The position numbers and the translations under genes were made by a program. This document shows positions 4,567 through 49,670 of a DNA stretch of 64,000 nt, in pieces. The notes below the pieces were generated by a model. That model was not told where the DNA came from, ran no database searches, and saw only the letters and a list, made by a program, of their open reading frames with translations. This DNA comes from Tetracentron sinense (taxonomy: Eukaryota; Streptophyta; Magnoliopsida; Trochodendrales; Trochodendraceae), in assembly GCA_015143295.1 (NCBI GenBank), contig CM026565.1, positions 30,388,052-30,452,051 of the forward strand, written 5' to 3'. Within the stretch, counting starts at the first letter, position 1. Every line of letters starts with the position of its first letter.

Positions 4567-7252
4567 TCATTTTTCGTCATCTCCCTCTGAGTTATTCCCA
4601 ACACCAAATGGCAATTCCTGCAAAATATAAATCACAAAGATGTTTAATACATGCTGCGGTTGATATTTTATATTAGAATGAAATAAAATATTACCTGAGA
4701 TGGGCCACACATGAATCCTTGATATTGTTGATACATGTTGGGGTTGAGGTGTAGTTGTAGTTGTAGTTGGGGCTGCCCATACATGAAAGAAGATATTTGA
4801 CCTTGAAAACTTTGGTACATATATGAGTTCACTTGATTCATCTGCGTTTGTTGATACATAAATTGACTCGGACCTACTTGATATAACCCTATTAACACAT
4901 TCAAAAAAAGTTAATGACATTTAAAAGTTATCAACAACTGCAAGGCAAACCAATCAAACATTACCTGCATCACTTGATCATTTGGACATGTCGGCATCGA
5001 ATGTCTTATAGGAGCAGTAGGTGGCAAGGTGTAACTTGGCACCGTAGACGACTACCTTGTTTTTTTCCTCTTTTCTAAACAACTCTTGATCCTTGATCTT
5101 CCCTTATGGCCGCCTGCTTTTTTTGCTACTCCCTTCACCCGATTTGTAGTCTCATTGTGATCATCTTGAGTGCATGGTTCAATATTTTCATCATCATGAA
5201 CACAAGTATCATTACCTATCTCTTGTGATTCAGGTTCTAATGGTTCATATATGGATAATTGACTGAAAACTTCTTCAACCTTCTCTATGGCATTACATAA
5301 ACTTTCCACAGTAACTTTAAAGACTTTTTCATTTTCTGCAGCCCTAATGTACAATTTTATAGCCAAGCGACTTAATTCCTTATAACACTTTGACAACGTT
5401 ACATTTCCCACAAATAATGAACTTCTATGGCCACCACTTGAACTTGCAACCTTTGCATATCTACTCTATCTCTTCAAAATGTATTGATCTGGGATCTTGT
5501 CTACCTCCATGCGGTCAAATACTCGCGATGCATGACCACATAAAATCCCCGTGAATTCAAAGTTTTTACAACTACAAGATATAGTGAATTCCCTTTTGTC
5601 ACATGTAACTATGTATTGTCTTTTTTTCTCTGGACATGTTACCATAAATGTGTCCAATGTGTCGTACCCGACACACAATTTCACTCGATAACCCAATCCC
5701 TTATCATATTCCTCCTTAAACAATTTATATATTGTAGGGGTGTAAATATTTCTTGCACAGATCAACAATGAAATCTCCGCTATTACTGTACACACACTTT
5801 GTGTCATCTTGAAGTCCATATGTAAATCTACATTCCTTCTGTCATCTACTACCCTCTCAAAATATTCAAAAACTTCCAACAAGTAATGACTATTGTTTAA
5901 ATAACGCTTCAAGACACTATTCAAACCTTCACTTCTTTGGGTGTTTTTTATATCCACGCAAAATGTAGTCCTTCCATATACCAATGCCCATTTCTCCCTC
6001 AAACTAAACATCCATTGTAACCATGTATTCCCCCTTAGATTGTCGTTATCCAACATGTTCTCCCACCCGTTAAGAAAATCTTATTCTTCATCGTAATCAT
6101 AAATCAATTTGTTGAAATCCACACTGAATGACTTTCAACCACTAAATGCACGGCTAAGATGCTTTCGAGCATTTTGAAACATGTGCCACACACATATGCG
6201 ATGATATGTATCTGGCAAAGTTATGGAGATTGCATTGGCCATTGCCTTGTCTTGATCCGTAAGAATGGTTTTTGGTTGTTTCTCAGACATTGCAGATAAA
6301 AAAGCCCTAAACACTCAGTTGAAAGATTCCGTTGTTTCATCGCACATCAATGTCGCTCCAAATAAAATTGTCTGCCTATGATGATTGACGCCTACAAATG
6401 GTGCAAATGGCCATGCTTGATTATTCGTCCTATAAGTTGTATCAAAACAGATCACATCACCAAATGCATTATAGTCATTGACCATTCTTGAGTCTGTCTA
6501 AAAAATGTTAGTTATTATATCTTCGGCGTCAAGCTGTATGGAGTATAAAAAAGCTGGATCTTCTACAACCATCTTTTGAAGATAATGTAGTATTCCTCCT
6601 GCATCTCCTTCTTCCATTGATCTCATTCGTTTAGAACCAGTATAATTTTTCATGTCCATGTGAAGGAAACCTACATTTTCAAGCCCTCCAACTTGTGCGG
6701 TCATATGTCTTCTTTAATGGTATACCCACACTCCTTGCCATATTAGCTTCAGAAGCTTGCACATTAGTTACTTGCCTCCTTGATCGGCACATGTAAGATT
6801 TCATTGGTATACAATGATGATTGTGCTCTAACTGTATCTCAAATATCTTATATTTTCTGCTCGGCAGAAGGTTAATCATAATATGAGCCTTACAATCAAC
6901 TTTAGTAGGATCCCGTTGGTGATCGGGGTTTCTCCGTCTATCTTCTTTCTTAAAACCTTCTTGCGAACAACAGAGTTTTCTACGGCTCACCACACCAACG
7001 TTATTTTTGTTTTTCCAATCCTTTCGAGTACTAAAATCAACATTTCTCGCATATTCATTGTAGAAATCGTATGCATATTGCTCTGAATCAAATTCCAAGT
7101 CAACTTCTGGATTTGGTGTGTCGTCATTATTTTTTGAACCTTTATTATTGCACCCAGATCCACTATCATGATTATACTCATCATCTTCTCTCAAATGATA
7201 ACCTGCGTGATACTCGTAATCCACTATTATCTTCTTCAAAAGAACCATCCAT
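4567..7252 (-). pseudogene. FAR1/MuDR-type MULE transposase, decayed
   Basis: A minus-strand gene reading from ATG at 7252 (MDGSFEEDNSG) to the stop at 4567. Near 6770-7120 it encodes a FAR1-type DNA-binding region: a FYNEYAR block, then Cys and His pairs ending in LEHNHHCIP. Near 6080-6500 it carries the MULE transposase core (GDVICFDTTYRTN, ILTDQDKAMANAI, ICVWHMFQNA). Near 5510-5600 there is a SWIM zinc finger (CSCKNFEFTGILCGH). A Gln/Met-rich tail follows in small exons (about 4698-4890 and 4567-4617) ending GNNSEGDDEK. The order matches the FHY3/FAR1-related family. The frame is broken: at least two frameshifts (near the start and near 6690) and about five in-frame stops, several at Trp codons, so no functional protein is expected. 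In the intact family the protein binds the element ends and carries out excision and insertion. Confidence 0.88.
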
Positions 7253-8189
7253 AGCACAAGAAGATTAATATTGCTTTTGTAGATAACTGCAAACATAGAT
7301 ACTTCATTTCAAAATGCTAAAAATCATAGTAGTTAACTACAAAATAATTGTCTTACTCCAAATATTTTTCAGAGTTTGAGAGTATATTAATTTTATGTAG
7401 AATAAAGTAGCTAAAAAGTTATAGGTAGAATAAAGTAGCTAAAACTATTCAGAGTTTCAGATTATATTAATCAATGCTCATGTGCATATACCCCAATTCA
7501 ATGACTCATGCAGGATAAAGTAGCTAAAACTAAATAAGCACCCACAGATAATTCATCTTGGGCTAGCTTGAAGTCAAACCAAACATAGTGCTCTCCATTC
7601 AAGGATCTATGAAAAATAGCAAAATATCTGCTATGGCACTAAAAAAATGTTACAAAATGCATATATTGACAATCTCCTCAGATATTTTGTAACATTTTTT
7701 TTTAAGTAAGAAAAAAAAATCCAAATTTTAAAGCTTTCATCTTAAGAAAGAATTGAGAGGATGAATACCTAAACTGTTAAGCAGTTGGCCAGTCCACCCT
7801 CAACAGCACTCATAAGCAGTTTTTCAAAGAATATCAATGTCCATAGCCGCCTAGGATTCTAGGACATGGAAGCTTGCCTATTCCAACTTTTGAGCTGCTT
7901 GAATCAGGGTTTTACAACAACAACAAAAAAGGGTTTTACATTAGTTGGGTACCAATCAAATTTCACTATGAGCAAATTTCATGAGTTTTGATAGATATAG
8001 TCTGTATATCAATCTTTGTAGGGACCAATTTGGATGCTTAATTCAGGAATTGTGGTTTGAAATGATGTAAACGTTTCAGTTTTTCCGATTCTAAATATAT
8101 CCCAATTAAATTCATTGCCATTGCATCCAATATAAAACAACATAAGGCAAAGAAGACGTAAGTGATACAATTATACATGTCAATGGTGT
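7253..8189. other. MULE interior between transposase start and right TIR
   Basis: AT-rich non-coding sequence that should hold the transposase promoter and 5' leader. A motif agaataaagtagctaaaa occurs three times with changes between 7395 and 7530. No gene was recognised. Confidence 0.45.
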
Positions 8190-14213: not shown

Positions 14214-14969
14214 TCAAATCCTACAAGCATGAGAAGTAAGAGTCAGCAAGGTCAGTTTCCCATTTGTATCTATTTACCGATAGATGCACAAATGTATGTA
14301 TGTTTATGCAATGTGTATGGGAGTAAGAGAAGGGGAATTTACTGAATGTATTCGACGTTGACTCTGATGTTAGGGATCCTTGAGATGGCATCAAAGGCTT
14401 TGTTTGATAGAATCAGAGTTGCTGGGCACGGATTATTTCGACAGATATCCACAACCTCTACAACTATGGATCTATCCTTGCACGGATGATTGAGGCCACT
14501 GATGCACCGCATGCGATACTTCCGCCCACACGCTGCTCCATTGTCCCATATGCCATTGCTCAGAGCTACAAACAAACCACTGTCCGGAAATTGATCTTGG
14601 TCATAGCCGTTGCATTTTGTTGCTGCATTAAGAACAGAAGGTAAATAGGGAATATCAGTCCACCTATTTCAATACTACTTTGTGTATAAACTATGTAATT
14701 AGGCTATACTTCACATATTTCTGTACAGTTGTTCGGATTGAACATTGTGACTTGATGATTTGGTGAACTAAGCACAACTGCCATAACTACCTCACTCTCT
14801 AACTGTAATTATTTTATTTAATAATAATAAAGGTGTAATGATAAGGGTACATATGTTACGTACGTAGGTACGGAGGGTCATACGACCTAGCCGTCCCGAC
14901 GTCCCCTACGACTACTAGAATATCAACACACAACCACCCCACAAGCACAACTGCTAAGATGAACCTCAT
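14214..14969 (-). CDS. EG45-like / plant natriuretic peptide-like secreted protein 1
   Basis: Three coding exons on the minus strand: 14969-14864 (106 nt), 14622-14343 (280 nt) and 14220-14214 (7 nt), giving about 130 residues. Exon 1 encodes a hydrophobic signal peptide (MRFILAVVLVGWLC...) and the family start GDVGTARSYDPPYL. Exon 2 gives PTKCNGYDQDQFP, then WDNGAACGRKY, RCISG, VEVVDIC and CPATLILS..AF, the double-psi beta-barrel (barwin/expansin-like) core with six Cys. Exon 3 adds only the last bases of Q-I-stop. Splice phases close the frame exactly (PPYL|PTKC; EYI|QI). Members are small apoplastic proteins without the expansin second domain; some act as natriuretic-peptide-like signals for water and ion balance or stress. 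It looks intact. A second copy with the same structure lies at 18473-19161. Confidence 0.88.
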
Positions 14970-18090: not shown

Positions 18091-18472
18091 CCTCCCACTT
18101 GATATGTTCTTAAAAAACACGAAAACGTGCCCCTAACTCATCAATGGAAGTGTGAAATTACTCTTCAATTTTGCAAGATCCCGTCGAGCTTCATGTTTTC
18201 TTCTTTAAAATTAGGTTAGGGGAACAAATACATTGTTGTATGTGACACAGGTAAGTTCAAAGTGATACTTCATTTAGTTTTGGACTTCATTTCTATTTTT
18301 GTTAAGAACTCACACATGATCAAAGTACAGTATGGAGTAAATATTAGAGCTAGAACGATACATAAGAACCCAATTAAGTTCTTTATTATTACAGTTCTAC
18401 ACTCTTTTCAGCATCTATTTTTGATTGGTATTACAGTTACTGGAGTTGTCGAAATCTGGTGCATTCAGCACA

Positions 18473-19161
18473 TCAAATCCTGGAAAAGAGATGAGAAAAA
18501 AAGTTAGAGATGAGTAAGAACACAAACTTAAGCTAATGCAGATCACTGTCTTGAGAAGAAGTAGAAGTAAATACTGGATAAATTCGATATTGATTTTTGC
18601 ACCGGGAGAGCGAGAAACAGCTGCAAAAGCATCCTTGGACATGAGGAAGGTGGAAGGGCATGGTTTCTTCGAGCATAAGTCCACCACCTCCACATCTATG
18701 TCTCCATTCTTGCATGGTTTATCAATGCCACTGATACACCTCAACCTATAACGCCTCCCACAGGCGGCTCCATTGTCCCACAACCCTTCACTCAGTGCCA
18801 CAAACAGATTGCCTGGAGGGAATTGATCTTGCCTATTCCCAGAACACTTAGTAGCTGTAAAAAGATGAAAAATATGAATCAAAACAACCTTATAGTATGC
18901 TCATATATAGGTCATAATTCTCAAAAATAAAACATTTTCTAGTTTAAACTATGCGAATGTTGCATTCGCGCTCTTTCTATTACACAATGGCAATATTATC
19001 TCTAATAAACAGCTAAAAAAAAACCTCTCTATCAAGAAATGTGCAAAATACTCACGAGTGTATGGGGGAGCATAAGAAGTGGCAGTGCCAACGTCCCCGA
19101 GGACTAGCGCTACACAGTTACACAACAAACCTAACACTACTGCAATGACTAAGAGCCCCAT
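18473..19161 (-). CDS. EG45-like / plant natriuretic peptide-like secreted protein 2
   Basis: Same plan as gene 1: exons 19161-19056 (106 nt), 18854-18575 (280 nt) and 18479-18473 (7 nt), about 130 residues. The start chosen is ATG at 19161 (MGLLVIAVVLGLLCNC, a clear signal peptide), because upstream codons lie before the signal. The mature part begins GDVGTATSYAPPYT|PTKCSG and carries WDNGAACGRRY, RCISGIDKPC, VEVVDLC and CPSTFLMS, ending INIEFI|QI. Six Cys of the double-psi beta-barrel are kept. Exon lengths and phases equal those of gene 1, so the two are tandem duplicates, about 3.5 kb apart, same strand. Expected to be secreted to the apoplast; natriuretic-peptide-like signalling is the family role and is inferred here. 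Confidence 0.88.
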
Positions 19162-34291: not shown

Positions 34292-34793
34292 ATTAAAACT
34301 CTATTCAAAGTTGATCAGAGCATGAGATTTTTCAGTTTTTTTTTTTTGGGCTTCTATTGATTTCAGTTTTTATTTATCACAGTTCAAAGTTGATCAATGC
34401 GTGCGATTTTCCAGCTTTTTTATTTTTAAAATGTGGGTTGTTTGCATATATTGAAACTCTATTCAAAGTTAATTATCCAAAAAAAAAAAAAAAACCCTCT
34501 ATTCAAAGTTGATCAGAGCATGTTATCTTTGAATAGAGTTTCCAAACGGAGCCTGAATATATGAAACACAAAATACCGTCTCTGAGTGAAAATAGTACTC
34601 TGATTATCAGGCCCGAACTGAATACGGGCTGGCCTGCGTGGGCTAACTCGGGCTCAACCCGAACTGTGTTTTTAACATGGTCTGGGCCCGGCCCAACCCA
34701 CCGATGCGCAATGTGCAGCCCTAATACAAATCATTCGCAGAACCTTTTTTTGACCCTCAGGATCATTCGCTCAAACAGAAAAGCTTGCAAGTG

Positions 34794-34891
34794 ATGGAGG
34801 TGGAGAAGGAGGCGCAGAAGTACCAGGTTGACCTAGGAAATTTAATGGCATTCGACCCCCATCACCCCTTCCCTTCTTCCCTCTCTAACAG
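34794..34891 (+). CDS. RRS1: RRS1 exon 1, copy U1
   Basis: ATG at 34794 encodes [20 protein letters not shown] and ends [12 protein letters not shown] in phase 2, followed by donor AG|GTTAGG. It differs from the U4 copy by a few residues. It could splice to exon 2 of U1 (36344) or of U4 (44845) in frame, so it may be an alternative first exon. Expression is unknown. Confidence 0.7.
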
Positions 34892-34901
34892 GTTAGGGTT
34901 T
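34892..34901 (-). promoter_or_regulatory. Telo-box at the start of intron 1 (U1)
   Basis: GTTAGGGTTT, the reverse complement of AAACCCTAAC, lies directly at the splice donor. Telo-boxes near the 5' end of plant ribosome-biogenesis and ribosomal-protein genes are known expression elements. The same motif occurs at the matching place in all four units (37799, 39659 and 43529). Confidence 0.55.
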
Positions 34902-36343
34902 CTCCTTTCAATCCATCTTTCTTTCTTTCTTTCTGTTTTGTTGCCTTTCTTTCTTGTTTATAAATTTGGATTTTCAGAGTTGTTGAGAAGCCTGTTTTGC
35001 AGGTCTTCGTTAAATTTCCTTTTTTTTTTGTTGGGGTGGGGGGTTTTGGTTTTCTGCTTCCTCTGTTTTTTCTTTGAGTTCTTTGGTTGTGAAAAATCTG
35101 TAAATGGTTGTGATTTTATGTTTGTGTATTGATATTCTATGCCTTTTTGTTCATATTTTAGGTTTCTCAAGCTCTCGAATGTTAGCTTGGGATTATTTTA
35201 GGCTTGTTTACCCCAAATTTTAAGAAACAAAAAAATCAAATCAAAATTGTAAAAGTTGAACATGCCTATTAGATTCTCCCTCGGGGGAAAACAAAAACTT
35301 AAGAACTGAACATAGTTATTCTCGTGAGGCTAATGGGAGAAACATGATATGAAGAATCTATAAACTATGATGGGGTGAAGTTACCTTTTTGAAGTTTTAT
35401 CTTAACAACAAATTCATATTTATGTTTCTTAACTTTTATGTGAAAACTAATATTATTAGGGTATTATAAGTAGTACAATAAAATTATTTGAGGTTAGCCG
35501 GGCTGAGCCGCTCATTGCTTGTGTTCAGCTTGATTAACAAATGAGCTCAATCATTTAGCTTGGCTCGGCTTAACGAGCTCAAATACCCAACTCAAGCTCG
35601 GCTCATTTCGAGATGAATCGAGCCGGCTCGGCTCATTGACAGCCTTACTGAACACTCCCAAAATACAGTTACTATCAACAACCATGTAATTCAAGACCAC
35701 ATAATTTACTATGGCCTGACCATGTGGCTTGTATGATTGACTTTTATCAGTACTCCCTAGATAGGGAAATGGGTTAGAGGAGGCACACCGAACTTGACTT
35801 AACATTCGAAACCTTTTTGAATGCGGAGGGAATCCATCACCCAAAAGGGATCAAGTTTCTTAGAACTATTGATCCTTTTTTACCTAAATTACGCAAGTGA
35901 ATATCCAACCCAAAATCCATCCAATTACATTTTTGCTCCGTTTGTTTCGATGTAAAATAGGGGAAAGCAAATGAAATTCATGGAAAATATCAATTGTCCT
36001 ACAGGAAAAACACGCGAAAAATGACATTTTCTGTGGAATTATTTTGTTTTCCCCTATTTTACATCAAAACAAATGGAGCATTTAATTCAAATGGGCAAAG
36101 TTTTTAATTAGTTATCAGAAAAGCTAATCAAAGCAAGATGGTTCTAGTTGCTACTTTGGAATCAAAATAGAACATCTTAATTAACCAAACAGCAGTTTTG
36201 AGCATAACACCCTGACAGATTGTTCCTAATCCAAATAGGAACAACCGAAATGGTGATAAAATATGTTTCTTTTATTTATGAAGTTGTAAAGGATTTTTGG
36301 CAATTCGAAACCCTTATGAAAGATTACACATTTATTTTCTCAG

Positions 36344-36494
36344 GGAAGAGCTAGTGAAGCAATGCCTACAAAAAGGCTCTGAGCTTGTTCAAGAAATTGC
36401 AGATGCTCTTTTCAACTTACCTTCAACAGAAGACCCAGATGGACCCCTTGTTCGTTTGCCTCCACCGACGACAAGGTTGCCTAGGGAGAAGCAT
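36344..36494 (+). CDS. RRS1: RRS1 exon 2, copy U1
   Basis: Acceptor tctcag, then [20 protein letters not shown]...LPREKH, then donor gtaaat. 151 nt, entering in phase 2 and leaving in phase 0, like the U4 copy. Because the length is not a multiple of three, a transcript holding both exon 2 copies would lose the frame. Confidence 0.7.
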
Positions 36495-37324
36495 GTAAAT
36501 ATTCTTTCTTTAGTCTTTGTGATTCTGCATTTGTAGATTCCATTAGGTTGTATAGTTCCTTCTAGTGTATTGTCATTACCATGTCCATCCATGCTTGGTT
36601 TTGGCGTTTTGCTGAGGGACATCTTCTGAAGACTAGGGACCTAAGATGTCCGAAAAAGGCTTATTATGGAAGTTCCTGGTTCATACATGAATTTCAGTTA
36701 ATGAAATATTATGTTGCAACTGCTTTGCAGCATCCTTTCTTGGGTCCACAACTATTTTTGTACCAAAGCCTATACAAATAATTTTTCTTGCTTAATTGTG
36801 TTTCTTCAATACCTTCCCTAGTCTTGGTTGAGTTTTAAGCTTCTTCCCTTGTCATTTGGATGTGTTATGATGTTTGTTTATAAAGTAACTCTGAGCAACC
36901 TTTAAGTCGATGTAACTTAGTACAGATAGGTATGGCGGTGTTGTCTAGCCGAAGCTAAGCGCGGCTGAGTTTAGTCCAAGCTCAGTTGTGAGCCCGAAGT
37001 TCATTTCCGGCTCAAGGGCTGAGGCCAAGCTCATTAGATATAGTTCTATACATCTTTATATAAATAAGTTATTTCAAAATCCAAAAAAAAATTCAAACCG
37101 TATGATAGTACTAATTTTATAATTTACATTTATAATAATATACAGACATTTCTTATAATACATTCTATCATACATATAATCTCAAATGTAGGTGGGGCTG
37201 TGCATGGGCTTTCCAAGTTCAGCCTACTCGGACTCAGCTCATCAGTGTTCCTGTCCAGTTAGAATAGTAGTCACTGGATCATTTGCTCGCAGCACAAACT
37301 CACAAAAGTTTTGATTAGGATGGG

Positions 37325-39163
37325 TTGTTTCGATTTTCCAGTTGTTTTATTTTTATTTTTAAAATATGGGTTGTTTGCATATATTGAAACTCTATTCAAA
37401 GTTAATTATCAAAAACAAAAAAAGACCTCTATTCAAAGTTGATCAGAGTTTCCAAACGGATCCTGAATATATGAAACACAAATACCGTCTCTCAGTGAAA
37501 ATAGTAATCTTGACTATCAGGCCCGAACTGAGTACGGGCTGGCCTGCGTGGGCTAAATCGGGCTCAACCCGAACTGTATTTTTAAAATGGGCTGGGCCCG
37601 GCCCGGCCAGACCCAACCCACCCGATATGCATTGTGCAGCCCTAGTAAGATCATTCTCACCTTTTCGATCATTCGCTCAAACAGAAAAAGCTTGCAAGTG
37701 ATGGAGGTGGAGATGGAGGCGCAGAAGTACCAGGTTGACCTAGGAAATTTAATGGCATTGGACCCTCATCACCCCTTCCCTTCTTCCCTCTCTAACAGGT
37801 TAGGGTTTCTCCTTTCAATCCATCTTTCTTTCTTTCTGTTTTGTTGCCCTTCTTTCTTGTTTATAAATTTGGATTTTCAGAGTTGTTGAGAAACCTGTTT
37901 TGCAGGTCTTCGTTAAATTTCATGTTTTTTTTTTTGTTGGGGTGGGTGGGGGGTTTTGGTTTTCTGTCCTCTGTTTTTTCTTTGAGTTCTTTGGTTGTGA
38001 AAAATCTGTAAATGGCTGTGATTTTATGTTTCTGTATTGATATTCTATGCTTTTTTATTCATATTTTAGGTTTCTCAAGCTCTCGAATGCTAGCTTGGGC
38101 TCGGCTCGTTTATAGATAATCGAGCTTGAGCCGGCTCTCGAGCTTGCCCTATTATTTTAGGCTCGTTTACCCCTAATTTTAAGAAACAAAAAATTCAAAT
38201 CAAAATTGTAAGAGTTGAACTTGCCTATTAGATTCTCCCTCGAAAAAAAAAAAAACTTAAGAACTGAACATAGTTATTCTCGTGAGGCTAATGTGAGAAA
38301 CATGATACAGAGAATCTATAAACTATGATGGGGTAAATTTTTATCTTAACAACAAATTCATATTTATGTTTCTTAACTTTTATGTGAAAACTAATATTAT
38401 TAGGGTATTATAAGTAGTACAATAAAATTATTTGAGCTTAGCAGGGCTGTGCCGCTCATTGCTTGTGTTCGGCTTGATTAGCTAATGAGCTCAATCATTT
38501 AGCATGGCTCGGCTTAACGAACTCAAATACCCAACTCAAGCTCGGCTCATTGACAGCCCTACTGAACACTCCAAAAATACAGTTACTACCAACATGCCGT
38601 GGAGATGGTCACATTTTTCTTCTCATTGGCCCTAAAAAAGTTACAGTTGTGGTCAAAGTGAGAACCATTCAAGGACTTCTAGTCCCCTGAAACCCAACTC
38701 ATCATCTAACAACAATACTATCAACACCGCAATTCTTAACTTCACTAATAAAGATTGATTAACCACAAAGCAATAGACTCACCAAATAGAAAACCTTTGC
38801 TTTAGAACAACAGAGAACATAATATTTGTTTAGACTACTGATCACGTTGGGTCTAAATAATGAACAATAGAGAACATAGAAGGACTCTCACCATGTCCCT
38901 ATGCTCATCAATAAGGATGAGAAAGTCCCATATTATTTGAGACTATCTAAGACTAATAGAGTCCTGCCAACTCTCTAATAAAAGAGTCATTTTCAACGAG
39001 AACAACAAGTCCTCTTTGGATGAGAACAAGATTGTTCTCTTCATACGTATTATGGCCCCACATAATAATAATAACCCTAAGTTATTTATAAAATAAAATA
39101 AGTTAAAGGGTAATTTGGTGAACATAAAGTTTTGCATACTTCTTGTACTTTTATTAGTAGAAT
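37325..39163 (+). repeat. RRS1 tandem unit U2 (exon 1 only)
   Basis: Repeats the 5' half of U1/U4 with exon 1 at 37701-37798. In place of exon 2 it has a segment of about 565 bp (about 38598-39160) shared only with U3. Confidence 0.87.
37701..37798 (+). CDS. RRS1: RRS1 exon 1, copy U2
   Basis: [20 protein letters not shown]...SLSN, intact, with donor GTTAGG. No exon 2 follows within U2, so it could contribute only by splicing across U3 to exon 2 of U4. Confidence 0.6.
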
Positions 39164-41034
39164 GATTTATCACAGTTCAAAGTTGATCAATGCATGCGAT
39201 TTTCCAGTTTTTTTATTTTTATTTTTAAAATATGGGTTGTTTGCATATATTGAAACTCTATTCAAAGTTAATTATCAAAAACAAAAAAAGACCTCTATTC
39301 AAAGTTGATCAGAGTTTCCAAACGGATCCTGAATATATGAAACACAAATACCGTCTCTCAGTGAAAATAGTAATCTTGACTATCAGGCCCGAACTGAGTA
39401 CAGGCTGGCCTGCGTGGGCTAAATCGGGCTCAACCCGAACTGTATTTTTAAAATGGGCCGGGCCCGGCCCAACCTACCCGATATGCATTGTGCAGCCCTA
39501 GTACAGATCATTCGCAAAACCTTTTCGATCATTCGCTCAAACAGAAAAAGCTTGCGAGTGATGGAGGTGGAGATGGAGGCGTAGAAGTACGAAGTTGACC
39601 TAGGAAATTTAATGGCATTGGACCCTCATCACCCCTTCCCTTCTTCCCTCTCTAACAGGTTAGGGTTTCTCCTTTCAATCCATCTTTCTTTCTTTCTGTT
39701 TTGTTGCCCTTCTTTCTTGTTTATAAATTTGGATTTTCAGAGTTGTTGAAAAACCTGTTTTGCAGGTCTTGTTAAATTTCATGTTTTTTTTTTTTTTTCT
39801 TGGGGTTGGTGGGTGGTTTTGGTTTTCTGTTTTCTCTGTTTTTTCTTTGAGTTCTTTGGTTGTGAAAAATCTGTAAATGGTTGTGATTTGATGTTTCTGT
39901 ATTGATATTCTATGCTTTTTGATTCATATTTTTGGTTTCTCAAGCTCTCGAATGCTAGCTTGGGCTCGGCTCGTATATAGATAATCGAGCTTGAGCCGGC
40001 TCTCGAGCTTGCCCTATTATTTTAGGCTCGTTTACCCCTAATTTTAAGAAACAAAAAATTCAAATCAAAATTGTAAGAGTTGAACTTGCCTATTAGATTC
40101 TCCCTCGAAAAAAAATAAAAATAAAAACTTAATAACTGAACATAGTTATTCTCGTGAGGCTAATGTGAGAAACATGATACGGAGAATCTATAAACTATGA
40201 TGGGGTAAATTTTTATCTTAACAACAAATTCATATTTATGTTTCTTAACTTTTATGTGAAAACTAATATTATTAGGGTATTATAAGTAGTACAATAAAAT
40301 TATTTGAGCTTAGCAGGGCTGAGCCGCTCATTGCTTGTGTTCGGCTTGATTAACAAATGAGCTCAATCATTTAGCTTGGCTCGGCTTAACGAACTCAAAT
40401 ACCCAACTCAAGCTCGGCTCATTGACAGCCCTACTGAACACTCTAAAAATACAGTTACTACCAACATGCCGTGGAGATGGTCACATTTTTCTTCTCATTG
40501 GGCCTAAAAAAGTTGCAGTTGTGGTCAAAGTGAGAACCATTCAAGGACTTCTAGCCCCCTGAAACCCAACTCATCATCTAACAACAATACTATCAACACC
40601 GCAATTCTTAACTTCACAAATAAAGATTGATTAACCACAAAGCAATAGACTCACCAAATAGAAAACCTTTGCTTTAGAACAACAGAGAACATAATATTTG
40701 TTTAGACTACTGATCACGTTGGGTCTAAATAATGAACAATAGAGAACATAGAAGGACTCTCACCATGTCCCTATGCTCATCAATAAGGATGAGAAAGTCC
40801 CATTTTATTGGAGACTATCTAAGACTAATAGAGTCTTACCAACTCTCTAATAAAAGAGTCATTTTCAACGAGAACAACAAGTCCTCTTTGGATGAGAACC
40901 AAGATTGTTCTCTTCATACGTATTAGGGCCCCACATAATACTAATAACCCTAAGTGATTATGAAATAAAATTAAGTTAAAGGGTAATTTGGTCAACATAA
41001 AGTTTTGCATACTCTTGTACTTTTATTATAGAAG
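39164..41034 (+). repeat. RRS1 tandem unit U3 (exon 1 only)
   Basis: Near-identical to U2 throughout, including the 565-bp segment (about 40464-41030). U2 and U3 are therefore the product of the most recent duplication step in this array. Confidence 0.87.
39561..39658 (+). pseudogene. RRS1 exon 1, copy U3, with stop
   Basis: ATG GAG GTG GAG ATG GAG GCG is followed by TAG (39582-39584), where the other copies have CAG. A Q-to-E change follows two codons later. This copy cannot start a full-length protein from this ATG. Confidence 0.85.
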
Positions 41035-44000
41035 GATTATCATAGTTCAAAAAAGGTTTTGATCAATGCATGCGATTTTGTATAGTTTTTTATGTTTATT
41101 TTTTAAAATATGGGTGTTTGCATATATTGAACTCTATTCAAAGTTAATTAGCAAAACCAAAAAAGGACCTCTATTCAAAGTTGATCAGGAGTTTCCAAAC
41201 GGATCCTGAATATATGAAACACAAATACCGTCTCTCAGTGAAAATAGTAATCTTAACTATCATGCCCGAACTGAGTACGGGCTGGCCAGCGTGGGTCTAA
41301 ATCGGGCCTAAATGTCGATATCGCTCGACATGTCGGAGCCGCGGAAAAAAAATATATCGTTTATCGGTGATTTTGGGAAAAAAATGGCAAAAAATATAGC
41401 AAAACATGAAATTTTGTAGTGAAACTTCAGGAAATGTTAAAATAGATGTTCATCTTTTAGAATAAAAACATTAAAAAAAAATAACAATGTACATAAGAGA
41501 TGCAATGAGAAGAGAGCAACGATGTGCGCTGATGAGTGACGAAAATGTATGATTGATTCATGTTTCATTCATTTCTCAATAAGATGTGCTCTTACCTCTA
41601 TAAGATTCATAATTATATAAATATACATAATCAACTCCTATCACCTTCATTTTTTTTTTAATGATTATCCGTGTTAATTGTTTTAAAAATCTGAAAAATT
41701 GATTAATGCACATTAAAGTTGATAAATAATTGAAATTTATTTTATTTTTAAAACTTATTTCTATTTGCAACTGATGAGCTCATTGTTTTTTACAGGATTG
41801 AATTAATATGAGACTGGAGGAGATGGTTAAATTATCGGAGACCCTGCATCGATCAAGAGAAAAAGAAGAAGACTGTAATTTTATTTGATTAAGAAGTGGA
41901 TGTAATTATGTAAAAATAAGTAGATGTAATTTTCCCAAAAAATGTGCAGGACTCATATTCAAGTTTTGGTAATATATATATTGAGGGTTATTTAGGTGAT
42001 TATAAGTTTCATGTAATCAAGCAAGACCTCTATCGCAAAATATCAAATACAAATTTTTTTCTATCTATATTTTTTAACAGGTTAGAAAATTTAATTTTAG
42101 TTTTTATACAAATTATAGAGGAATTTTTAATAATATTTTATTAAATGCATTGTTAATCCACTGTCTTGATTAATAATATTTTATATTTTTTAACAGCTTA
42201 ATAATTTGTGAATACATTGTTATGTGTAAACCTTTTGCAAATTAACTCATTGTTTTCCAACAGTTAGACAAATACACTCAAAATAAATAAAAATATTTAA
42301 TGTGTCTCTGAATTCCTTTTAACTGTGAATCTGTGATTAAGGTTTACTAACCCCTAGAAATAAAGCATCTAACCTTGATTTTTTAAAAAAATAAAAATTT
42401 AAGGTGTCATTTTTTAACTTGTTTTAACTATGGTTAAGATTAACTAACTCTTACGATTATCTAACCTTGGTTTTAAAAAAAAACCTATCTTTTAACTCCC
42501 TTTAATTGTGGTTAGGGTTTACTACACCCTCAAGGTTAAAGAAACTAACCTTGGTACTTAAAAAATTTTAATGTGTATATTTTAACTATCTTTAACTATG
42601 GTTAAGATTTATTAACCCTTAGGATTAAAGCATCTAAGCTTGGTTTTTAGAAAAAAAAATTAAAATTATCATGTCATTTGATTAACTATAGTTAAAGAGC
42701 AGTTAAAGGAACTTTGTAAGGCTATAGATTCTTGTAAGGACATAATAGTCTTTTGATTAACATTGAGTTAATTTGCAAAACTGTTAAAGATAAATAATAG
42801 ATCGAGTGAAGCTAGCATAACCCTTCTTAGGGTTTAAATCACATTCGCATACTCGATTTCAGGGAAACCAAAAACAAAAACAAAAAAAAACAGAGAGGGG
42901 ATTGTACAGCTCGAAAGGAGGAAGGGTGGGGGAACCTTGGCATCTGGCGACGGCGACGGCGACGGCGAAGGCTACTCGAGACAGCGACGGCGAGGCAACT
43001 GGAGACAGCGACGGCCACGGTACCCCTTCTTCTTCCTTCTTTCTTCTCTCTCAAATTTCAACGTTTTTTTTTTCTTCTAAGACAAAATATTCATGTCTCA
43101 GCTCTCAAATCTCAAGATTATTTGCAATTTTTATGAAGATTTGTGGGATTTTTCAAATTTAGGGATACCACGGTCGATATCGGTGAGTTATCGCCGATAT
43201 ATCGTCGATAACTCCCGTTACTGTGTAAAAATTTCTCAACACCATATCCATATAGATCACCGATACCGATAAATATCGCCTATATTATCGATATTGCGAT
43301 CCACCCGAACTGCATTTTTAAAATGGGCCCGGCCCGGCCCAACCCACCCGATATGCATTGTGCAGCCCTAGTACAGATCATTCGCTAAACCTTTTCGATC
43401 ATTCGCTCCAACAGAAAAAGCTTGCAAGTGATGGAGGTGGAGATGAAGGCACAGAAGTACCAGGTTGACCTAGGAAATTTAATGGCATTGGACCCTCATC
43501 ACCCCTTCCCTTCTTCCCTCTCTAACAGGTTAGGGTTTCTCCTTTCAATCCATCTTTCTTTCTTTCTATTTTGTTGCCCTTCTTTCTTGTTTATAAATTT
43601 GGATTTTCAGAGTTGTTGAGAAACCTGTTTTGCAGTTCTTCGTTAAATTTCATGTTTTTTTTTTGTTGGGGTGGGTGGGGGGTTTTGGTTTTCTGTTTCC
43701 TCTGTTTTTTCTTTGAGTTCTTTGGTTTTGAAAAATCTGTAAATGGTTGTGATTTTATGTTCCTGGATTGATATTCTATGCTTTTTTATTCATATTTTAG
43801 GTTTCTCAAGCTCTCGAATGCTAGCTTAGGCTCGGCTCGTTTATAGATAATCGAGCTTGAGCCGGCTCTCGAGCTTGCCCTATTATTTTAGGCTCGTTTA
43901 CCCCTAATTTTAAGAAACAAAAAATTCAAATCAAAATGGTAAGAGTTGAACTTGCCTATTAGATTCTCCGTCGAAAAAAAAAAAAAAAAAAACTTAAGAA

Positions 44001-45814
44001 CTGAACATAGTTATTCTCGTGAGGCTAATGTGAGAAACATGATACGGAGAATCTATAAACTATGATGGAGTAAATTTTTATCTTAACAACAAATTCATAT
44101 TTATGTTTCTTAACTTTTATGTGAAAACTAATATTATTAGGGTATTATAAGTAGTACAATAAAATTATTTGAGCTTAGCAGGGCTGAGCCGCTCATTGCT
44201 TGTGTTCGGCTTGATTAACAAATGAGCTCAATCATTTAGCTTGGCTCGGCTTAACGAGCTCAAATACCCAACTCAAGCTCGGCTCTTTGACAGCCCTACT
44301 GAACACTCCAAAAATACAGTTACTACCAACGACCATGTAATTCAAGACCACATAATTTACTATGGCCTGACCATGTGGCTTGTATGATTGACTTATATCA
44401 GTACTCCCTATATAGGGAAATGGGTTGGCAGAGGCGCACCGAACTTGACTTAACTTTCGAGACCTTTTTTTATGCGGAGGGAATCCATCACCCAGAAGGG
44501 ACCAAGTTTCTTAGAACTATTGATCCTTTTTTACCTAAATTACGCAAGTGAATATCCAACCCAAAATCCATCCAATTACATTTTAATTCAAATAGGCAAT
44601 GTTTTTAATTAGATATCAGAAAAACTAATCAAAGCAAGATAATTCCAGTTGCTACTTTGGAATCGAAATAGAACATCTTAATTAACCAAACAACAGTTTT
44701 GAGCATAACACCCTGACAGATTGTTCCTAATCCAAGTAGGAACAACCGAAATGGTAATAAAATATGTTTCTTTTATTTATGAAGTTGTAAAGGATTTTTG
44801 GCAATTCAAAACCCCTGTGAAAGATTACACATTTATTTTCTCAGGGAAGAGCTAGTGAAGCAATGCCTACAAAAAGGCTCTGAGCTTGTTCAAGAAATTG
44901 CAGATGCTCTTTTCAACTTACCTTCAACCGAAGACCCAGATGGACCCCTTGTTCGTTTGCCTCCACTGACGACAAGGTTGCCTAGGGAGAAGCATGTAAG
45001 ATATTCTTTCTTTAGTCTTTGTGATTCTGCATTTGTATGTTCCATTAAGTTATATAGTTCCTTCTAGTGTATTGTCATTACCATATCCATCCATGCTTCG
45101 TTTGGCGTTTTGCCGAGGGACATCTTCTGAAGACTAGGAACCTAAGATGTCTGAAAAATGCTTATTATCATACATGAATTTCAGTTAATGAAATATTATG
45201 TTGCAACTGCTTTGCAGTGTCGTTTCTCGGGTCCACAACTATTTATGTACCAAAACCTACACAAATAATTTTTCTTGCTTAATTGTGTTTCTTCATTACC
45301 CTCCCTAGTCTTGGTTGAGTTTTTAGCCTTTTCCCTTGTCAATTGGATGTATCATGATGTTTGTTTGTAAAGTAACTCTGAGCAACCTTTAAGTCGACGT
45401 AACTTAGGTACAGATAGGTATGATGGTGTTGTCTAGCCGAGGCTAAGGGCGGCTGAGTTTGGTCCAAGCTCAATTGTGAGCCCGAAGTTCATTTCCGGCT
45501 CGAGGGCTGAGGCCAAGCTCATTAGATATAGTTGTATACCTATCTTTATATAAATAAGTTATATCAAAATCCAAAAAAAAATTCAAACCGTATGATAGTA
45601 CTAATTTTATACTTTACATTTATAATGATATACTTACATTTCTTATAATACATTCTATCATACATATAATCTCAAATGTAGGTGGGGCTGTGCATGGGCT
45701 TTCCAAGTTCAGCCTACTCAGACTCAGCTCATCAGTGTTCCTGTCCAGTTAGAATAGTAGTCACTGGATCATTTGCTCGCAGCACAAACTCACAAAAGTT
45801 TTGATTAGGATGGG
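41035..45814 (+). repeat. RRS1 tandem unit U4 (exons 1 and 2, with insertion)
   Basis: Last unit of the array, joined to the single set of exons 3-8. Homologous to U1 over its full length, ending GATTAGGATGGG, but split upstream of exon 1 by an insertion of about 2 kb (41310-43301). Confidence 0.87.
41310..43301. mobile_element. Unclassified insertion of about 2 kb upstream of RRS1 exon 1 (U4)
   Basis: Compared with U2/U3, the sequence is interrupted after AAATCGGGCCT and resumes at ACCCGAACTG. Both ends are rich in TCGATATCG/CGATATCGG motifs (TGTCGATATCGCTCGACATG at the left; TATTATCGATATTGCG at the right), a loose inverted similarity. The interior holds foldback-core copies (42310-42720) and a CGACGG trinucleotide tract (42950-43020). 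No transposase was recognised. Confidence 0.65.
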
Positions 45815-48800
45815 ACTGAAGTTCGGGACCAGTGTAGATGTACTGGGTTGGGCTGAAACTGACCTTGTCCCGTACCAATGTACAGTACAGCTGTAGTTAG
45901 ATTCATACAAAATGCTGATACACTTAAGTAACCTGGTTACCTGGTGTCACCGTGTGTGTGATAGACCAGGTTGGACTGAAACTGACCTTGCCCCAGACTG
46001 ATGTGCAGCCCTAGTTAGATACATACAACCTACAAAGTGCTGATACACTTATCTTAACAAACCTTGTGTGTGCACACAGTCGCACACACAACGTGCATAC
46101 AGTGTGTGCGCGTGCTTCGCATACGTGCATGCTTGCAGTGTGTGTCCCAGACAATTTGCAGCCCCAGTTAAATACATACAAACTGTTGATAGGCTTAACT
46201 AACCTGGTGTCAGTCTGGCTGTGTGTGTGTCCCAAACCGATGTCAGTCATAGTTTGAGACATACAAAGTGCTGATACACTTAACTAACATGGCAAAACAT
46301 ATAATAATACAAATGATATAATTATGATTATAATATCATAATTCCTATAATACAGTAAATAACATACATATTATTTCAAAATTCAAACATAGGCCCGGTT
46401 TGCCAAGTTCACCCAACTCGGTCCCAACTTGTGGATGTTGCTGTCCAGTTAGAAAAGCATTCACTCACTGGATCATTTGTTCGGCCCAAACCCACAAAAA
46501 TTATGATTGGGATGGGACTAGACTGGTTTGGGCCCAGTGTAGAAGACCGGGTTGGGCCCAAACTGACCTAATCCGGACTGATGTTCAGTCCAAGTTAGAT
46601 GCATATACAAAGTGCTGATACACTATCTTAACTAACCTGATAAGCTGATGCGTCAGTGCAGTTGTTTGACATATTAGAAGTCACATTTTAAAGATTATTT
46701 AGCTCGTAACTATATAAGTGCAAATTATAAAAGCAATAGAGAAGCAATATATGTGAATAAATAGTTGTGTTGGAGTTATAACAGTATGAGTGACTGCTGA
46801 AAGAAACTTTGTTAAAGTAAGGTATGTTATAATAATAGTATCGATGTGTTTCCAGCACGTGATTTGAATCACATCTTCAACACGGAAATGTACTCTGCAC
46901 ACTATCCTGATTTAGTAAACTCTAAACAGTCGATTACTCTCATACTAATGATTTATTAAACTGTGCAGTTGCTTCCTTCGCCTTTTACCTTATTTTTTCT
47001 TGTTGTAGAAGTAATGTCGCAATGTACTATATTATTTTATTCCTCTTTATGGTGAGCACGGATTTGTGATTGCTCATCTTATAATCTATTGTTCTTTTCA
47101 GCTTCCAAAGCCTAAACCCCCTACAAAGTGGGAAATGTTTGCCCAAAAGAAAGGTTAGTTATCTCAATTATTTCCTGTTGCACTATAGAGGACAATAAGA
47201 TAAATTAGTTTTAAAAAAGGAATTTTTCTTCTTAAACTGCAGAATTGATTTTTGAAAGATTTGGAATTTGGGGGTTTGATCCCAATTCTCTAATTGGTTC
47301 CAAGGTTGTGGGTTCATTCCCAAGCTTCCTACACTGAAATCTAATACACTTGGTTATTTTTCTTTGGAATCTCTGCAGGTATAAAGAATCGCAAAAAGGA
47401 CAAGGTTTTGTATGATGAACAAACTGGTACTTGGAAACGTCGTCATGGCTATGATCGTGTAAATGATGACAAAGATGTGCCCATCATTGAGGCCAAGATG
47501 ACTGATGGTAAATGATTTAACCTACTAATCTTTACTGTGTTCAAGCAGATTTACAAATTTCATTCCTGGGAATTTCTTTCCTTCTTGGGATAATATTGGG
47601 AATACTAAAAGAGGAAAATAAGAGTGTGTTTATTGTAAAACAACTCAAATAGTCTATCTACTAAACTGTAAGCATCAAAATATCATAACTATTCCATTAT
47701 ATTCAATTTTGCCAAGACTTTATCCGCAATGACCGTCACTCTTTGTAGAGCCAGGAGAGGATCCTTTTGTGAAGAGACAAGCAGAAAAGAGGAAGCGAGT
47801 TGAGAAGCAAGAGAAGAGCCGGTTGCAGAATCTGAAACAAGCTGCAAAAGTTGGTGCCTTGCCAAGGTTTGCTCCTCTTAATTTAATCTGAGTTGTTTGG
47901 AGCATTATGTATTACCACATGCTTGTAATGTGATCTCATACACACATCAAATGGGAACAGTTCCAGTATTGTTTGTTTTCCGTGTATATAATTACTCATC
48001 TTATGCTGCGAAATTCCTATGCAGCTATCCTTAATTTTAAAAGATCGTTTATGTATTGCAGCTGTCATACAAACATCAAATACGACCAGTTCCAGTATTG
48101 TTGCTTTTCCGTATGTATAACTATTATTCCTAGAGTCGGTCTATGGGTACTCCCAAATATAATCCTGAATATACTCCCTAATCCTAACCGTTTAAACCAC
48201 TAAGGGCCATGATTTGAGTTGGCTTATTTTGTCTTTTCCAATGCCATATGAGCTCTAATCCTAACCCTTTAATAATTGAGATACACGATTAGGATTTGGG
48301 AGTACACTTTGGGAGTATCCCTAGACTAGTTCTTATTCCTATGCTACAAAATTCCTTTGCACCTTGTGTCAATTTAAAAGATCATTTATGTATTGCAGCT
48401 ATATGTATTTACATGTAGAACTTGAGACCATGTCTGGTTATGTCCTTGAGTTCTGTCCGAAAGATTCCTCTTTTTTCTGAGTCCTTGGACATGAATCATA
48501 CTTTTTAGACTATGGGTCTCTACCCTACAAGGCATACATGGAGGATCTGGACCATTCAGTCACTGGCCCTTCATTGCCCAAACTTCAACTTCAGCAGATG
48601 ATCTGTCTTTGACACCTTATGTTTGGTTGCCGAGAAAATAAGTAAAAACATGGAAAAGAAAAGAAAATTGGACAAAACACAAATAAAAACTGTATTAGAA
48701 ATCCAAAATTTTCTTTTCTTTTCCATGATTTTACCTATTTTCTCAGCAACCAAACATAGGGTAAAGAGATTTCTTTTCTTGCCCATTGGATAATAAGGAT

Positions 48801-49670
48801 ATGACAAAAAACTTACTTTTGGGCTGGGAGAGATCCTTATTGCAGGTCCATTGATTGGACAGTCTGGAATATGGATCACTTATCATGACACATCATAAGT
48901 ATGATGCCACGGTAGAATGACATGATTTTCATAGATTTAATATGAAAGATCTGACTTTAAGGTTTTCTGGCAGCCATGTTCAACTCGCTGCAACAGCATT
49001 ACCCATAACAGGAACCCAAAGTGCACCAAAGAAAGTTAGCAAAGATGAACTAGAGAATGTTGCTGGAATGGCGGCAACTGCAACAGCCAGCGGTGGTAAA
49101 TTTGATAAGAAGCTGCCCGGAGAGAAGCCTGCAAAACATGTTGGGAAGTATCGTAAGGTGTGTACGCCTACTCATCTTTAATAATGCAACTGCTTTTACG
49201 ATTTTTCCTCTTTGTGACAAAACAAGGATTGACAACATTTTATTTGTTTCTTCCTCTATTTCCCTTTAGTTCCTCCCTGTTGCGGAGGGAACAGGAATGG
49301 GCTCCCTAGAGAAGCAGCAAACAGACAAGGTTCTGAACAAGCTAATCTCCAAGCATTCCCATGAGATTCTAAATGTTGATAAGGTAAGCCATACATGTAG
49401 TTACTTATATTTTGGCGTGGCTCAAGATCCAAGTTTCCATTGGTTTAATGTAGTTCTTGTTTATCTGTAAATTTGTATATTGTTTGTGAATAGGCTGTTA
49501 CTATGTTCAATGTGAAGAGAGAGAAACGAAAGAATCAACAAGGGAAGTCTTCATCAACCTCGAGCAAGTTGAAGCCGCAAAAGAAACCTCTTAAAAATTC
49601 ATCAAAAAAGGGATCATTCAAGAAGGGATCATCAAAGAAGGGGTCATTTAAGAAAGGACAGTCAAAGTGA
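43431..49670 (+). CDS. RRS1: Ribosome biogenesis regulatory protein, RRS1 family (8 exons, 340 aa)
   Basis: Exons: 43431-43528, 44845-44995, 47102-47153, 47379-47507, 47749-47866, 48974-49157, 49270-49383, 49494-49670; the sum of 1023 nt gives 340 residues, and all junctions are GT-AG and in phase. Landmarks in order: [116 protein letters not shown], and [11 protein letters not shown]. The tail is Lys/Ser-rich with GSFKKG repeats. This is the RRS1 family (not the plant immune receptor of the same name), a nucleolar factor that works with Rpf2 to bring 5S RNP into the large ribosomal subunit. Length is close to other plant members (about 320). Upstream, exon 1 occurs three more times and exon 2 once more. 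The gene looks intact from this start. Confidence 0.92.
45815..46640. repeat. Degenerate repeats and GT/CA-rich tract in RRS1 intron 2
   Basis: Blocks around TACAAAGTGCTGATACACTTA recur at about 45905, 46030, 46265 and 46605, joined by GGGTTGGGC..AAACTGACC blocks. 46060-46150 is alternating purine/pyrimidine (GTGTGTGCACACA, GTGTGCGCGTGC), prone to non-B DNA. No coding support. Confidence 0.65.
48133..48332. mobile_element. MITE, 200 bp, 9-bp target duplication, in RRS1 intron 5
   Basis: GAGTCGGTCTATGGGTACTC and the inverted right end GAACTAGTCTAGGGATACTC match at most positions. It is flanked by ttattccta at 48124-48132 and 48333-48341. The 9-bp duplication suggests a Mutator-type MITE. Confidence 0.85.
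48614..48762. mobile_element. Foldback MITE in RRS1 intron 5
   Basis: ACCTTATGTTTGGTTGCCGA and the inverted ACCCTATGTTTGGTTGCTGA form long arms that pair through GAGAAAATA..GGAAAAGAAAAG. Target duplication not clear. Confidence 0.75.

Follow-up and report, generated by a model that had tools for sequence, protein, structure and literature searches.

An RRS1-family gene of Tetracentron sinense with a serially duplicated 5' end ahead of one body

How would a ribosome-assembly gene work when its 5' end is repeated ahead of a single body? The question is raised by a locus at positions 34370-49670, plus strand, of a 64,000-nucleotide stretch of Tetracentron sinense DNA (hereafter the window, whose positions are used throughout unless a contig is named). 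A first-pass annotation had described here four direct units carrying exon 1 (34794, 37701, 39561 and 43431), two of them with an exon 2 (36344 and 44845), ahead of one set of exons 3-8. Absent from that annotation were the 2-kb repeat that interrupts the U4 upstream sequence, the transposon fragment X found at two unit junctions, the frameshift caused by splicing in both exons 2, the second contig and the paralogue with single exons 1 and 2. The annotated coordinates were confirmed, and the locus holds one RRS1 gene with a single exon 3-8 set at 47102-49670, given here from the gene model:

47102..47153, plus strand: exon 3
47379..47507, plus strand: exon 4
47749..47866, plus strand: exon 5
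48974..49157, plus strand: exon 6
49270..49383, plus strand: exon 7
49494..49670, plus strand: exon 8, stop codon included

When spliced at GT/AG borders, any pairing of an exon 1 with an exon 2 gives a 1023-base coding sequence and a protein of 340 amino acids, except for the pairings of the third unit (U3), since codon 8 of its exon 1 is TAG. The annotated membership of the RRS1 family is borne out by the Pfam RRS1 profile (PF04939), matched over residues 10-172 and profile positions 2-165 of 165 with 183 bits against a curated cut-off of 25 (E 5.3e-54), and by the RRS1 chains of solved pre-60S particles, of which seven distinct PDB sequences were matched at E <= 0.001, with the human RRS1 chain 8fkp_ST as the top match (E 8.9e-40).

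The units (U1 to U4) and the repeats lying among them are as follows:

34372-37324, plus strand: U1 as a whole (upstream block, exon 1, intron 1, exon 2, intron 2 start)
34372..34793, plus strand: U1 upstream block, candidate promoter, with TGGGCY at -155, -111 and -104 from the ATG
34794..34891, plus strand: U1 exon 1, open (gene model)
36344..36494, plus strand: U1 exon 2, open, with the same acceptor as U4 exon 2, from which it differs at 2 of 151 bases
36495..37324, plus strand: U1 copy of the intron 2 start, up to the U2 junction (unit comparison)
37331-38593, plus strand: U2 as a whole (upstream block, exon 1, intron 1 start)
37331..37700, plus strand: U2 upstream block, short by ~32 bp at its start, with TGGGCY at -152, -113 and -108
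37701..37798, plus strand: U2 exon 1, open (gene model)
38594..39164, plus strand: X, a transposon fragment at the U2/U3 junction (full-length matches on contigs C9, C10, C8 and C4)
39165-40465, plus strand: U3 as a whole (upstream block, exon 1, intron 1 start)
39165..39560, plus strand: U3 upstream block, with TGGGCY at -146, -107 and -95
39561..39658, plus strand: U3 exon 1, with TAG at codon 8 but open on the second contig, C825 (gene model, C825 translation)
40466..41033, plus strand: second copy of X, at the U3/U4 junction, end approximate (genome matches, unit comparison)
41034..41307, plus strand: distal part of the U4 upstream block, start approximate (unit comparison)
41308..43302, strand not assigned: high-copy repeat inside the U4 upstream block, ~128 bp before the U4 ATG, also in C825
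43303..43430, plus strand: proximal part of the U4 upstream block, with TGGGCY at -107 and -95
43431..43528, plus strand: U4 exon 1, open, the closest to the body (gene model)
43806..44288, strand not assigned: dispersed repeat in intron 1, common to all four units (genome matches)
44845..44995, plus strand: U4 exon 2, open (gene model)

The larger unit-to-unit matches show 88-96% identity over ~0.4-2.1 kb, with E-values from 1e-135 to 0.0, and the similarity is therefore far above chance. Each unit had been said to carry the same upstream sequence and the start of intron 1, which holds with three restrictions: the upstream sequence of U4 is split, ~32 bp of the upstream start present in U1, U3 and U4 are absent from U2, and the ~43806-44288 part of intron 1 is dispersed in the genome; of the 40 scored matches obtained with the exon 1 unit, 32 are copies of it at other places. 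U4 begins near 41034 and is broken by the repeat at 41308-43302, beyond which it takes in exon 1 and exon 2 and continues by way of intron 2 into the body.

Exon 1 is 98 bp long, with the donor CAG/GTTAGG, and encodes 32 residues that are nearly identical between the copies; 2-6 of the 98 bases differ between them, and the resulting N-termini vary by a few residues only. Exon 2, of 151 bp, is not divisible by 3 and has the acceptor TTTCTCAG/G. The splice-site letters are the same in all four exon 1 donors and in both exon 2 acceptors, and three of the four exon 1 copies are intact in the window, as annotated, only U3 being broken by its TAG.

An array of this kind could be an artefact of assembly, the real genome having fewer units. 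When the genome was searched with the exon 1 region (43300-43640), eight places were matched: four on the contig of the window (C15) and four on C825, a contig of 237 kb that is colinear with window 19693-55617 in large blocks. Exon 2 was matched at five places, two on C15, two on C825 and one on contig C19. Within the C825 sequence examined (171000-210999 plus two 1-kb end pieces), exon 1 lies at 186113, 189015, 190895 and 194727, and exon 2 at 187663 and 196108; the 2-kb element in U4 and both X fragments are present as in the window. The right end of C825 matches C15:30482510-30483533 at 86%, and its left end is a repeat in which matching gave no usable anchor. Taken together with the colinearity, the right-end match points to C825 as an allelic contig, apparently the other haplotype, as the simplest reading. 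All four exon 1 copies are open on C825, U3 included (U2-U4 were translated, U1 was read by eye, ungapped over 98 of 98 bases), so that 7 of the 8 copies on both contigs together are open, with all splice sites kept. The coding sequences of U4 plus the body differ between C15 and C825 at 14 of 1023 bases, nine of which change a residue.

The presence of the same four-unit array with two exons 2 on C825 is a strong argument against an assembly artefact, which we judge very unlikely. The number and order of the units are the same on both contigs, as is the presence of two exons 2, two X fragments and the 2-kb element, and of 12 gap-free shared-state sites in the six inner modules, 7 group the units by position across contigs. 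On the other side, the modules differ between contigs at 3/962 bases in U1, 24/976 in U2, 26/928 in U3 and 22/947 in U4; the inner ones are thus 2.3-2.8% apart, more than U1 (0.3%) and more than the larger flanking blocks (0.7-1.7% mismatches), which could indicate a less accurate assembly there. The remaining 5 of the 12 sites do not fit pure positional allelism, which suggests some exchange between units. The six inner modules also carry 65 private substitutions, unexplained by exchange among the sampled units, and these leave room for assembly inaccuracy inside the array.

The history of the array can be read against a further RRS1 gene on C19 (minus strand, ~9636900-9647940), which has the exon 1-7 structure of the array gene but one exon 1 and one exon 2. 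Its RRS1 domain is complete (173.5 bits), and its intron 1 measures 6249 bp, so first introns of 5-7 kb occur in this gene family. Its exon 7 is of 121 bp against 114 bp, a frameshift that cuts the protein to 275 amino acids. Over the part before this frameshift, to which the comparison was limited, the array gene and the paralogue show a dS of 0.37 and a dN of 0.089 (ratio 0.24), with 222 of 271 aligned columns identical. Given the single exon 1 and exon 2 of the paralogue and a unit divergence of 2-7%, the array is, from the sequence comparison, derived relative to the single-copy gene, having arisen in the C15 line after the two genes separated. U1 is the deepest branch: its exon 1 module is 5.7-7.1% from the others, the inner units being 2.0-4.0% apart, and residue 20 is Phe in U1 as in the paralogue and Leu in U2-U4. 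Since the non-coding blocks around exon 2 differ between U1 and U4 by a similar amount (5.2-5.5%), U1 and its exon 2 may go back to a single early event; U2-U4 came later. As U3 and U4 keep the ~32 bp that U2 lacks, more than one order of the duplication steps is conceivable.

The junctions bear on the formation of the array. X, of ~570 bp, is found complete on C9, C10, C8 and C4 at 94-95%. Its relatives on C9, C10 and C4, whose sequences were compared, have further leftward sequence in common, which suggests that X is the right-hand portion of a longer element. At its left junction, the letters CCAAC are present both in intron 1 and in the relatives of X, which fits a joining via short matching sequence with the transposon fragment as filler; an insertion followed by a deletion would fit too. 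The 2.0-kb element of U4 has near-full-length copies on C10 (88%) and C14 (87%), its C825 copy is 95% identical, and the ~2-kb repeat family to which it belongs has at least 162 matches in the genome.

Pieces of RRS1 are also found elsewhere. A fragment of exon 3, intron 3 and exon 4 (72-75% identical, intron included) lies at five places, on C22, twice on C16, on C20 and at C19:2.45 Mb; longer common blocks at 89-95% are present at four of them, so that a multi-copy element seems to have captured the fragment. A separate RRS1-like fragment, made of the end of exon 7 and exon 8 with the intron, lies at positions 4621-5018 of the piece C9:35690000-35699999. The six extra RRS1 loci inspected are fragments with introns, and no retrocopy showing an exon 1 in use was seen among 21 exon 3-8 matches. 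In the window itself, broken FAR1/SWIM-type frames on the minus strand at 5052-7308 (PF03101, E 3.7e-20; PF04434, E 6.5e-08) may belong to a FAR1-like gene or a related transposase. Two DPBB_1 frames (PF03330) form a small tandem pair on the minus strand (14339-14668 and 18415-18900), which we take to be expansin/EG45-like genes. No RNA family was matched in the window at gathering scores.

In each of the eight modules, four per contig, the 160 bp preceding the ATG contain 2-3 TGGGCY motifs, and a telo box lies at +100, but as the units are homologous these are not eight independent observations. The association of telo box and site II is a promoter mark of ribosome-biogenesis genes, according to the accessible text of PMC3022908. 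In shuffled 48.6-kb background from outside the array, the motif module occurred 0.07 times on average and at least once in 20 of 300 runs. There is one extra motif-module place outside the units on C825 (184842) and one in the C19 stretch, ~1.9 kb before exon 1 of the paralogue, for which the module is absent from -400 to +200. A segment overlapping the TGGGCY stretch has short matches at other places in the genome, and the telo box lies inside intron 1, not upstream.

As for selection, U1 and U4 show 2 differences over the 151 bases of exon 2, compared with 73 over 1386 bases of the flanking introns (Fisher p 0.016, one-sided, one test). The differences restart close outside exon 2, so that any conversion tract would need to match the exon in extent; the C825 copy of U1 exon 2 has one further change. 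We read this slow change as a weak selection signal. No clear constraint was seen on exon 1, where U1 and U2 differ at 3/98 bases against 10/125 just upstream and 8/294 just downstream, and CpG counts, compared for signs of silencing, did not set any unit apart.

With moderate confidence, and along the lines of the several possible promoters proposed in the first-pass annotation, we infer that this is a functional RRS1 gene in which the serially duplicated, directly oriented 5' part provides alternative promoters for the single body. The duplicated part runs from the upstream block through exon 1 into intron 1 and, in one case, on through exon 2 into intron 2. As U2 and U3 have a donor but no acceptor before 44845, U4 exon 2 is their natural partner: a U2 transcript would join its exon 1 to it over a 7046-bp intron, a U3 transcript of the other haplotype over 5186 bp, and a U4 transcript would use the same exon 2, its own, over 1316 bp, all three giving nearly the same 340-amino-acid protein. 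U1 exon 1 could be joined to its own exon 2 (1452-bp intron) or to that of U4 (9953 bp).

When both exons 2 are spliced in series, the frame shifts and a stop follows after 95 codons, with six exon junctions downstream. A stop with exon junctions downstream marks an RNA for nonsense-mediated decay, and the U1 transcript with both exons 2 would probably be destroyed; U1 would thus yield protein only if one exon 2 is skipped. This opens another reading, that the upstream units make non-productive RNA of this kind or interfere with U4, and so tune the dose of RRS1. The premature stop produced by taking the 151-bp exon 2 twice speaks for such an obstacle, but both exons 2 are reachable by U1 transcripts only, and the slow change of U1 exon 2 would rather suggest past translation; we hold it quite improbable. 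Hardly less doubtful is a dosage device under selection, in which serial promoters of the ribosome-biogenesis type and a frame-breaking upstream exon 2, with U1 output set by exon skipping, would make the number and integrity of units a heritable variation in RRS1 dose. Such a dose can matter, as far as the accessible text of PMC6120060 goes: Arabidopsis ARRS1, a single-copy RRS1 of the same protein family as the array gene, is nucleolar, binds ARPF2 there and has a role in 60S assembly, and its overexpression alters growth.

Among the papers listed in a literature search on RRS1 and duplicated first exons, which covered few subscription journals, no plant RRS1 gene of this layout was found, in line with the first-pass annotation; the layout itself does have a precedent. 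The closest known case is PEP1 of Arabis alpina, an FLC orthologue (Albani et al. 2012; PMC3527215). According to the accessible text of that paper, PEP1 has, like the array, a tandem duplication that takes in the proximal promoter, exon 1 and a portion of intron 1; its two exon 1 copies are spliced to the same exon 2, with exons 2-7 in common and nearly identical products, and both copies are transcribed, from separate starts and with different expression. In the RRS1 array, promoter, exon 1 and the first part of intron 1 likewise stand as direct copies ahead of a single body. As far as that text allows the comparison, the differences are that PEP1 has two copies and the array four, that exon 2 and part of intron 2 are also duplicated in the array, that upstream sequences have diverged in PEP1 and are similar in the array, that PEP1 is a MADS-box regulator and not a ribosome-assembly gene, and that transcription of the copies was shown for PEP1, the RRS1 array being known here from DNA sequence. 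Clusters of the UGT1 and protocadherin type also place tandem first exons ahead of one common exon set, mammalian UGT1 being the classical cluster of first exons with their own promoters (accessible text of PMC3325998). Their first exons code for distinct domains, which diversifies the products, whereas the exon 1 copies of the array, with 2-6 of 98 bases differing, encode 32 nearly identical residues and no clearly different protein parts.

By analogy, the transcription of both PEP1 copies and their splicing to one exon 2 would support alternative promoters, together with the gene model and its frames, the RRS1 domain, the dN/dS ratio of 0.24, the array on C825, the kept splice-site letters, the long intron 1 of the paralogue, the motif module and the slow change of exon 2. 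Against them stand the broken U3 of the window haplotype, the 2-kb element 128 bp before the U4 ATG, the lack of clear constraint on exon 1 and the restrictions on the motif module given above. It is possible, though rather unlikely, that the gene is driven by a single unit (U4 most likely, or else U2) and that the remaining units are recombination relics in decay, with no role of their own. The stop codon in U3, the lack of a constraint signal on the exon 1 copies, the many private substitutions of the inner units (65 over six modules) and the non-productive outcome of linear U1-type splicing are in agreement with a single driver; the open state of 7 of the 8 exon 1 copies with every splice site kept, the slower change of U1 exon 2 than of its flanks (p 0.016) and the precedent of PEP1, as described in its accessible text, argue against it. 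On the alternative-promoter reading, which we prefer, at least two units probably contribute.

Thanks to single-base differences between the exon 1 copies, and to those between the two contigs, promoter use could be read by allele and by unit from the ordinary long-read RNA of one plant. The duplication junction, with its transposon fragment and short matching sequence, informs how such arrays start. As far as the accessible literature goes, the PEP1-type layout, so far two copies on a flowering regulator, is extended here to a fourfold array on a ribosome-assembly gene that includes exon 2.
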